NCBI RefSeq assembly: GCF_000015205.1
Contig: NC_008701.1
Span: 372,001-436,000 of the forward strand
Length of the DNA: 64,000 nt
Direction: 5' to 3'
Source: Pyrobaculum islandicum DSM 4184
GTDB lineage: Archaea; Thermoproteota; Thermoprotei; Thermoproteales; Thermoproteaceae
In this document: positions 23,918 to 26,477 of the stretch, one piece after another
Position numbering within the stretch: position 1 is the first letter of the stretch
Layout of the letters: every line of letters begins with the position of its first letter
The notes under the pieces: model-generated
The model's input: only the letters and a program-made list of their open reading frames with translations
Told to the model about the DNA's origin: nothing
The model's database searches: none
Position numbers and translations under genes: made by a program

Positions 23918-24787
23918 TCACGTTCTCTTCTTCGCCTTCGCAACCTCCTCAAGAACAGCCATTACTCCGCCAATGATTATTAACGCGCCTCCCAACATCG
24001 CTGTCTTAGCCGGGACCTGCCCCAGGAAGATGTAGGCAAAGAGCGTCGCGAATACAGGGTCTAAATAGCTAAGGATCGAAGCTGTGTGAATGCTTATCTT
24101 CCTTAAGCTGTCGTACCATAGGAATAAAGCCAGTAGTGTATTTACTAAAGCCGAAACTAGCACAATAGCTATATTGTAAGCGTTAAGCTCGAAATGCAGG
24201 ATTAGTAGAAATGGGGAGGTGATGGCGGTCGATATCAAAGTCTGGCAAAGCACCAACTCCAGCGGATTAGTCAATTTACCAACAGATAACTTGTTAAACA
24301 CTATTAGCAAGCCGTAGCTCACTCCGCTGAGAATCGCCAAAATAAGCCCTAAGCTCGCGCCAGCCCCCTCCGAAACCATCGTCACAAATGGATTTATTAT
24401 GACGGAAAGGCCGGCGAACGAAATCGCTGCAGACAGCAGTTTAACCCTACTCAATTTTTCACCGACGAAGTGCATCACGAACATGGAGAAGACGGGCCCC
24501 GTGTAGTAGATCATAACAGCTATAGAAACTGGGAGCATCGCCACGGAGTAGAATAGGAAGATCCAGTTAAGCGCCAAAAACACGCCTGAAGCCGCGATGA
24601 ACCTATCCCTCAACAGCTGGACCTTGACGTTTCTGAGGAGCAAGAGCAGAGAGAGGGCTGTGAAGAAGACTCTGAAAAATACAAACACGGGAGACGGCAG
24701 GCCGGAGTATATGGAGAGTATAGATACGCTTCCCCAGATCGCTGTGGTTACAACCATTTCGAGCACGCCCTCCGCCTTTTTATTCAT
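23918..24787 (-). CDS. EamA (DMT superfamily) transporter
   Basis: A 289-residue membrane protein with about ten hydrophobic helices in two EamA repeats: TTAIWGSVSILSIY near the N terminus, and the second repeat with VSYGLLIVFNKL, SILSYLDPVFATLFAYIFLG and AMLGGALIIIGGVMAVLEE. DMT/EamA proteins export or import small metabolites such as amino acids. Its ATG lies inside the last four bases of the upstream regulator-methyltransferase gene, so the two are almost surely co-expressed. The exported compound might be made or modified by that methyltransferase, which is an inference. Confidence 0.85.
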   Translation of the reverse strand: MNKKAEGVLEMVVTTAIWGSVSILSIYSGLPSPVFVFFRVFFTALSLLLLLRNVKVQLLRDRFIAASGVFLALNWIFLFYSVAMLPVSIAVMIYYTGPVFSMFVMHFVGEKLSRVKLLSAAISFAGLSVIINPFVTMVSEGAGASLGLILAILSGVSYGLLIVFNKLSVGKLTNPLELVLCQTLISTAITSPFLLILHFELNAYNIAIVLVSALVNTLLALFLWYDSLRKISIHTASILSYLDPVFATLFAYIFLGQVPAKTAMLGGALIIIGGVMAVLEEVAKAKKRT

Positions 24788-26334
24788 ACCCTTCTAAACA
24801 CCAACACGTGAGTCCCACCACCCAGCTTCCCCTCGCCCGTCGAATAGATTTTGTAGTGAGATTCAAGTCTCAGCCCACGCTCGGCGGCTTCGGAGATGAA
24901 CTTCGCAACGGAAGTCTTCCTCTCTTCGATAACGCCTAGTAATAGCGATGTCAGCTCTAGGTGGTAGAAGTTCAGGAAGGCCTTTTCCTCGTCAACTCTA
25001 TTCTCATCCTTTGTCCCCTCGCTAATATCGACGTAAACCTTAGATAAAATGTTTAGCGCAACTCTCAATTTCCCCTCAACAGCCGCGTTGTAGGCTGAAA
25101 GCAACTCCTCTCGAAAAGTCTCCAGCGGTATATCGAGCAAATACACCAAGTGGTGCTTAACCACGTTCAACTTCCTCGCCCTTTCACTGGCAAAGTCGTC
25201 TATAAACTCGTCAGCCACTATCAAAACCCCTCCCCTACTCAGCCGGCTGGAGGTCAGCTCGAGGAAGTTGTCTATGTGGTGGGAGGAGCCGAATGAGATA
25301 ATCGCATCCGTTTTCTCCGGTAATTCATTAAGCGTTGGGAATGTGGAGATCGCTTTAAATAAGTTAGAAGTCTCTACGCAGGTTATGCCTAAATCCAATA
25401 TCTCCGTCAGCATCCTCTCATGATATGCCGGGCCGCAGCCTAAGCTCACAACGTCTCTGATACCCCTCTTCTCCAACTCATATGCGACGTAGACTGCTTG
25501 TTCCGCGTAGCCTGGGTGTAGCGGCTCATACAAAAGGTATTTTAGTGGATCTATATTCCGCTCAAATGATGATCTTCTTAATAACGCGTTTTGGCTGAAC
25601 TTTCTCACGCCTTCCTTTATCGCCTTGGGAATTGTCAACTTCCCCCTAAGCGTTAGGATTTCCGCATTAAGCACATCGGCAGTTAAACTCTCCTCTAACC
25701 CCTCAACCGTTTGGAGATTATTTACTGCGTCGATTAGCATCTTTAAAAATTTGTTTTCAACGTTCTCGTCATATATTAAATCTCTATATCTGGGAATACT
25801 TACTTTCCTTGTGTTTTTATACTCGATTGTTGGTAATTCATCTTTTGAGCCATAGATTAATGTTACGATGGCCTCCGCGTCGTCTCCTACGGCCATGTAG
25901 AGGTGCTCCCTGCCTCCGTAGAACTTCGCAAAATCTCCCTCGCCAACTAACGACAGCTTGTCCCTGCTCCCGACGATCATCACCCCTTTAATAACTTGCA
26001 CTACTTCCATTGGCGAGTTCCTGTGGGGTTCAGAGCGCTTTATCGCGTTGGAGCGCAGCTTCATTAGGTATACCTCCTTGTTCTCTACACGCTCTATCAA
26101 TCGAACTTCAACCCCCTCGTCTTTAACAACTATGTCGTATGTCACGAGTTCGCCAAAGGGAACGCCTAAGGCGTTGGCGATGGCCCAGAGCGTGTTGATG
26201 GAGGGGCTTATCTTGTCATTTTCTATCTCCCACAAAGTCGATTTCGAGACACCCGCCAACCTAGCTAACCGCGAAAGGCTGAGGCCCTTTCTCCTCCTCA
26301 GCTCAGACAATCTATTCCCAAGCTTATACTCCAT
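24784..26334 (-). CDS. HTH-cupin-methyltransferase fusion regulator
   Basis: A 516-residue three-part protein. Residues 1-62 are an XRE-type helix-turn-helix (LSELRRRKGLSLSRLARLAG, then VSKSTLWEIEN). Residues about 70-165 form a cupin-like small-molecule sensor (MEVVQVIKGVMIVG, DFAKFYGGREHL). Residues about 270-516 are a class I SAM methyltransferase with VSLGCGPAYHERML, AIISFGSSHHIDNF and GGVLIVADEF. HTH-cupin regulators are common; a fused full methyltransferase is not one I know. It is translationally coupled to the EamA transporter. TTCGAA-type palindromes lie upstream (26354-26477), one between the TATA-like box and the start, suggesting autorepression. Confidence 0.8.
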   Translation of the reverse strand: MEYKLGNRLSELRRRKGLSLSRLARLAGVSKSTLWEIENDKISPSINTLWAIANALGVPFGELVTYDIVVKDEGVEVRLIERVENKEVYLMKLRSNAIKRSEPHRNSPMEVVQVIKGVMIVGSRDKLSLVGEGDFAKFYGGREHLYMAVGDDAEAIVTLIYGSKDELPTIEYKNTRKVSIPRYRDLIYDENVENKFLKMLIDAVNNLQTVEGLEESLTADVLNAEILTLRGKLTIPKAIKEGVRKFSQNALLRRSSFERNIDPLKYLLYEPLHPGYAEQAVYVAYELEKRGIRDVVSLGCGPAYHERMLTEILDLGITCVETSNLFKAISTFPTLNELPEKTDAIISFGSSHHIDNFLELTSSRLSRGGVLIVADEFIDDFASERARKLNVVKHHLVYLLDIPLETFREELLSAYNAAVEGKLRVALNILSKVYVDISEGTKDENRVDEEKAFLNFYHLELTSLLLGVIEERKTSVAKFISEAAERGLRLESHYKIYSTGEGKLGGGTHVLVFRRV

Positions 26335-26353
26335 AGCCGCTTAGGTTTGATAT

Positions 26354-26477
26354 TTCGAACTTAAAAGAATTACGCCTAGCAGATCTACTGCCTAGATTAA
26401 CGGGGATTTGTTCGAACCATGAAACGAGCAGGACTTCGGCGGCCTAGATCTCCACAAACCCGTTCGATAATACGAAC
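26354..26477. promoter_or_regulatory. Cluster of TTCGAA-type palindromes, candidate operators
   Basis: Three related sites precede the HTH-cupin-methyltransferase gene: TTCGAA at 26354-26359, GTTCGAAC at 26410-26417, and GTTCG-N6-CGAAC at 26462-26477. The first sits between a TTTTAAG box (about 26361-26367) and the ATG at 26334, where binding would block transcription initiation. Spacings of about 56 and 55 bp separate site centres. The remainder of 26335-26756 contains a nucleotidyltransferase relic and no other gene. Confidence 0.4.

Follow-up and report, generated by a model that had tools for sequence, protein, structure and literature searches.

Within a window of 64,000 nucleotides from Pyrobaculum islandicum DSM 4184, a single 516-residue open reading frame (24784–26334, minus strand) encodes, from amino- to carboxy-terminus, an XRE helix-turn-helix, a cupin and a methyltransferase-like half, and is directly followed by the gene for an EamA transporter. 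We lean towards regarding the pair as a local, self-regulated efflux valve, in which the methyltransferase-like half is probably non-catalytic.

Structure and distribution of the fusion-exporter pair

All features described below are on the minus strand of the window. The stop codon of the fusion gene and the start codon of the EamA gene share the sequence ATGA (24784–24787), a four-base overlap that would couple translation of the two proteins. The XRE/Cro-C1 DNA-binding domain comprises residues 1–65 (26140–26334), with a Pfam HTH_3 match at residues 10–63 (E-value 2.2e-14). It is followed by the cupin sensor domain, residues 66–165 (25840–26139), with strands between residues 69 and 160 in the AlphaFold model (pLDDT 88.6, pTM 0.88) and a weak, sub-threshold Pfam match to Cupin_2. 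The amino-terminal half of the model resembles the XRE-cupin structure 1y9q from V. cholerae (Foldseek TMt 0.79), which is also the best sequence match for the HTH-cupin part (profile E-value 8.7e-33 with alignment A3). This order of domains and the homology to 1y9q are those of XRE-cupin local repressors, and the protein is a putative member of that group. His104, Glu110 and His144 of the cupin are invariant in all aligned relatives and form a putative metal or ligand site. A sequence-only reading of the same DNA had described a three-part fusion overlapping an EamA gene, which the 516-residue frame, the HTH_3 match, the 1y9q-like cupin and the four-base overlap bear out. Its upper limit of 26477 lies beyond the start of the reading frame at 26334 and is the outer edge of a perfect palindrome (26462–26477).

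The transporter gene (23918–24787) encodes a protein of 289 residues with two EamA repeats (PF00892 in two stretches, E-value 1.8e-30). No substrate-specific family matches above its cut-off; the sub-threshold matches are to TIGR00950 (carboxylate/amino acid/amine transporter; 1e-23, below the curated cut-off), YddG and RarD. The protein is a probable amino-acid exporter.

When genome contigs were scanned, a single-protein query gave no matches and an alignment query succeeded. The concern that the fusion might be unique to this assembly can be set aside, as at least 14 genomes besides that of P. islandicum carry it. The 292 matches in the phylum were not all taken as fusions, most of them covering the HTH only. 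Among 41 relatives, seven others contain a full-length fusion at 53–86% identity, each with EamA directly downstream, and a ninth EamA-type fusion was found in genome G193, from another order, again directly followed by EamA. The linkage is thus present in all nine EamA-type cases (the window, the seven relatives and G193), and none of these genes, spanning 53–86% identity, contains a stop codon or truncation. An annotation or assembly accident was rejected, given recurrence at 53–86% identity in eight other genomes. Genome G010 contains a fusion at 34–36% identity with no adjacent EamA gene, while in G015 (L032:4998–5282) only the last 72 or so codons of the fusion and a broken EamA start remain; here the two seem to have decayed together.

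A second HTH-cupin copy in G002 (L033, G002:C1 2362611–2362937) is decayed and contains five TAA stops. The fusions of G002 and G006 (L023 and L024) differ only within codons 73–377, synonymous positions included, the remainder and the EamA genes being nearly identical. Their sequences suggest that these codons are a recombined tract, which fits the differences better than A-to-G hypermutation, considered for the recurrent His-to-Arg changes.

Elsewhere in the family the adjacent exporter differs. A version of 636–642 residues, from a sister family (G029 and G030), overlaps AzlC-AzlD. Versions of 538–672 residues are followed by AzlC, usually with AzlD, in Archaeoglobi (L133, L135 and L137, and with AzlC in L121/L065 and L070), gammaproteobacteria of the Thiotrichales type (L074, L118), Ca. 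Thiobius (L071), G785 (L125) and on a plasmid of Cereibacter azotoformans (L165). Shorter XRE-cupin relatives without a methyltransferase half are followed by AzlCD in Acinetobacter and Halomonas, among others, and in Campylobacterota by an EamA protein about 34–39% identical to that of the window. The Nautiliaceae relative has a YjeH-like exporter of methionine and branched-chain amino acids downstream (NF008245, 3e-78, just below cut-off), with EamA divergent. The proposal that the carboxy-terminal half of this relative is a further reduced methyltransferase was not upheld, hhalign aligning the HTH and cupin only. The tree of the HTH-cupin part is weakly supported at depth, and we claim no order for the exporter swaps. 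The SAM synthetase gene metK is a near neighbour of the fusion in Cocleimonas and Leucothrix (L072, L120), at a distance of two to three genes. The one relative in which the fusion is split, Cereibacter sphaeroides EBL0706 (L167:3902–8484), has an IS21 element inserted between the HTH-cupin and methyltransferase parts, and does not represent an ancestral two-gene state.

An enzyme fold with an eroding cofactor site

Behind a linker or helical segment (residues 166–265; 25540–25839), delimited from alignment A4 and the L133 model, lies a compact methyltransferase-like Rossmann core (residues 266–378; 25201–25539). Carboxy-terminal helices and strands beta6-beta7 complete this half (residues 379–516 and the stop codon; 24784–25200; alignments A1 and A4 and the model). 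Foldseek matches it to class I methyltransferases (E-value about 6e-7), with a Rossmann-like fold. DSSP assigns strands beta1, beta2 and beta4 to beta7, beta3 being absent, and the core motifs are GCGP at beta1, Glu321 at beta2, SHHI at beta4 and DEF at beta5. With the beta3 region deleted, the window protein does not have a complete SAM site of glycine motif I, acidic beta2 and beta3 adenine loop, and no Pfam methyltransferase model matches it at E<1. Motif I itself reads VACSP in G008 and VTCGP in G005, two orthologues. The earlier description of this half as a full SAM methyltransferase is therefore not retained, and in the structural model the SAM pocket looks incomplete.

Elsewhere in the family, motif I is shortened in L135, absent in L065 and L070 and replaced in L029 and L031. 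A Pfam methyltransferase domain scores above cut-off in L133, L125, L165, L074 and L071, and is absent from all EamA-type proteins tested and from G010, L029, L031, L135 and L070. The L133 model has the full strand order, with beta3 at residues 440–444. As the methyltransferase is intact in some Archaeoglobi and proteobacteria, the SAM site has eroded repeatedly, with the protein, operator and exporter persisting. In long forms, the cupin and the methyltransferase are separated by an additional alpha/beta domain (residues 185–263 of L133), lost in the Pyrobaculum type. On a plasmid of Streptomyces sp. NBC_01237 (L166:3446–6528), the methyltransferase part stands alone as a protein of 528 residues with an intact motif, its gene overlapping an ATP-grasp/PGM1_C gene; it is possibly an amino-acid or peptide methyltransferase. 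Given this standalone relative, enzymes probably exist in this family, and the relative suggests that the ancestor of the fused half was one of them.

The sequence-only reading had the protein methylate the molecule that it senses, and a bifunctional loop of this kind, in which one small molecule is sensed, methylated and exported through EamA, has a precedent in ArsRM, an HTH-methyltransferase fusion that is both regulator and enzyme (PMC10190100). The intact methyltransferase domains of bacterial and some archaeal members, and the enzyme ancestor suggested by the Streptomyces protein, point the same way. We nevertheless consider it improbable: the window protein has a compact or degenerate SAM site, and relatives with the remainder of the module in place have repeatedly lost the SAM motifs. 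Active methylation has the weakest case in the window protein, but is plausible for the intact relatives.

Selection on the methyltransferase core is weaker than on the HTH (dN/dS of 0.14–0.57 versus 0.0–0.08). These values are the highest or near-highest among the domains, yet remain below 1, as under purifying selection. An HH pair (residues 394–395) and the KT of an EERKT motif are kept in most members, including some that have no motif I, and the HH..Y and EE.KT residues are invariant across the nine EamA-type fusions. The dN/dS values and the variation of motif I together imply that the methyltransferase domain is constrained and its cofactor site is not; because the core is under purifying selection, an altered activity is also possible. 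That this half is a decaying passenger without a present role, attached to an ordinary XRE-cupin repressor, would agree with its high dN/dS, with in-frame deletions within this region in G016 and with plain XRE-cupin regulators of 176–183 residues that have the same type of exporter and operator. The lack of stops or truncations in nine genes diverged to 53–86% identity, the dN/dS below 1 and the invariant residues make this reading an unlikely one. Most simply, the half descends from a SAM-dependent methyltransferase, a captured enzyme reused for ligand sensing or assembly. In the window protein, this half probably senses a ligand and has no catalytic activity.

Operator palindromes and the proposed efflux valve

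A 16-bp palindrome, GTTC-N8-GAAC, is present at the promoters of fused and plain members of the family, in archaea and bacteria. The candidate promoter operator of the window, GTTCGAAATATCAAAC (26345–26360), matches seven of the eight consensus bases and lies directly behind a TATA-like TTTTAA (26361–26366). In this position, between TTTTAA and start codon, the palindrome is perfect in G002, G003, G004, G005, G006 and G008, and has one mismatch in the window and in G016. Promoter copies are also perfect in G010, G030 (two), L133, L135, L065, L070 and L071, and near-perfect in L074, L066, L103 and L126. Plasmids of Acinetobacter junii (L168:2933–2964) and Halomonas (L169:2940–2971) have a tandem pair of perfect palindromes before plain XRE-cupin-AzlCD operons. 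Further upstream in the window is a perfect palindrome, GTTCGTATTATCGAAC (26462–26477), which may be regulatory. It is one of three perfect matches to the stricter GTTCK-N6-MGAAC in the genome of P. islandicum, a number that indicates a local regulon.

A candidate operator also lies inside the coding sequence. At the codons for VRLIER, the window contains GTTCGATTGATAGAGC (26091–26106), again seven of eight, so that the promoter and VRLIER copies both depart from the consensus at a single base. In the other eight EamA-type genes compared, and likewise in G010 and four Archaeoglobi, the VRLIER copy has no mismatch; given the peptide and the codon usage of each gene, the chance of such a palindrome is 0.003–0.02 per gene. 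In G010 the peptide is altered to VLLIER and the palindrome retained. The bacterial L125 and L165, with similar peptides, have no intragenic palindrome. These codons are not simply among the most conserved of the gene: they do not fall in the top windows, and the half-sites are kept while the middle is not. A second intragenic palindrome, GTTCCCTTTGGCGAAC (26148–26163), at the VPFGEL codons, is perfect, and also occurs in G016 and the same four Archaeoglobi. Both the sharing of one palindrome by archaeal and bacterial members and the maintenance of the VRLIER copy despite free synonymous choice are unusual. The fusion thus has the adjacent transporter (in nine of nine EamA-type cases) and the nearby, conserved palindromic operator that characterize XRE-cupin repressors.

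We propose that the fusion protein would bind GTTC-N8-GAAC at one site between TATA box and start codon and at one or more sites within its own coding sequence. Once bound, it would repress the transcript, probably leaderless, for itself and, through overlapping translation, for EamA. Accumulation of a hydrophobic or sulfur amino acid, binding to the cupin, would release the protein and allow the exporter to be made; our best guess for this ligand, from the relatives, is methionine or a branched-chain amino acid. The compact carboxy-terminal half would serve as a second domain, ligand-sensing or dimer-transmitting. The likeliest mechanism is that the protein represses its own gene until an amino acid binds the cupin. 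XRE-cupin proteins are local repressors, one of them, PA1359, represses an RhtA-like DMT gene and the cupin of 1y9q holds D-methionine (PMC7901475). Of the three known methionine-exporter families, two are represented by YjeH and by BrnFE (which belongs to the AzlCD family), and both also export branched-chain amino acids (PMC8140960). The recurrence of the same switch, target site and pumps in distant archaea and bacteria would most likely reflect an overflow valve for methionine or branched-chain amino acids. The idea that the module senses a small molecule, controls its own operon and exports that molecule, already put forward by the sequence-only reading, is well supported by the linkage of fusion and exporter, the conserved operator and the known behaviour of XRE-cupin proteins.

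The methyltransferase-like half might instead sense SAM (or SAH), so that SAM would report methionine status and the cupin the free amino acid, the two jointly gating methionine efflux. Exporters of two methionine-export families adjoin relatives, class I SAM motifs are intact in L133, L125, L165, L074 and L071, metK is close to the fusion in Leucothrix and Cocleimonas, and the window protein retains GCGP and the acidic Glu321. Set against this, the SAM-binding elements erode (no beta3 or adenine loop in the window, VACSP and VTCGP in G008 and G005, none left in L065 and L070) and the metK neighbourhood is found in one order only; we regard SAM sensing by the window protein as rather doubtful. 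For the family as a whole we entertain, tentatively, an archaeal-bacterial group of transcription factors in which the cupin senses an amino acid and the captured methyltransferase fold SAM, gating efflux of methionine or branched-chain amino acids through a cross-domain palindrome and, in archaea, an intragenic operator. For the pair in the window, we keep to the amino-acid efflux valve with a probably non-catalytic methyltransferase-like half. Little is known of amino-acid overflow valves in hyperthermophilic archaea; this one would bring a regulator, an operator, an exporter and a probable class of ligand that are open to testing, and presents a three-part regulator in which an enzyme-derived domain repeatedly loses its cofactor site and the regulatory module persists.

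Relation to known systems

No description of this fusion architecture or of the combination was found in the open-licence literature. The nearest systems are the XRE-cupin local repressors (ErfA, PsdR, PauR and PA1359 of Pseudomonas, and 1y9q), which share the HTH-cupin arrangement and local control of an adjacent transporter; as presented in the parts of PMC7901475 consulted, they are bacterial only and have no methyltransferase half, and no intragenic operator is described. ArsRM of Brevundimonas, an ArsR-methyltransferase fusion, is likewise a regulator joined to a SAM methyltransferase and binds its own promoter, but it has an ArsR winged helix, uses arsenite as both ligand and substrate, is an active enzyme and has neither a cupin nor an amino-acid exporter (PMC10190100). 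With an XRE helix-turn-helix and no Pfam methyltransferase match, the window protein falls outside that type. BrnFE/AzlCD and YjeH provide substrate-induced efflux of methionine and branched-chain amino acids, and homologous exporters adjoin members of the present regulator family; BrnFE is under an Lrp-type regulator, the regulator of YjeH is stated to be unknown, and the window has EamA instead (PMC8140960). SahR and SamR regulate transcription in methionine and SAM metabolism, SahR responding to SAH and SamR possibly to SAM; both are ArsR-family proteins without an XRE-cupin, and what they control is biosynthesis and uptake, not export (PMC4239095). XRE-cupin regulators, HTH-methyltransferase fusions and the exporters are thus already known separately, whereas their combination, the cross-domain operator, the intragenic operator and the eroding enzyme domain look new.
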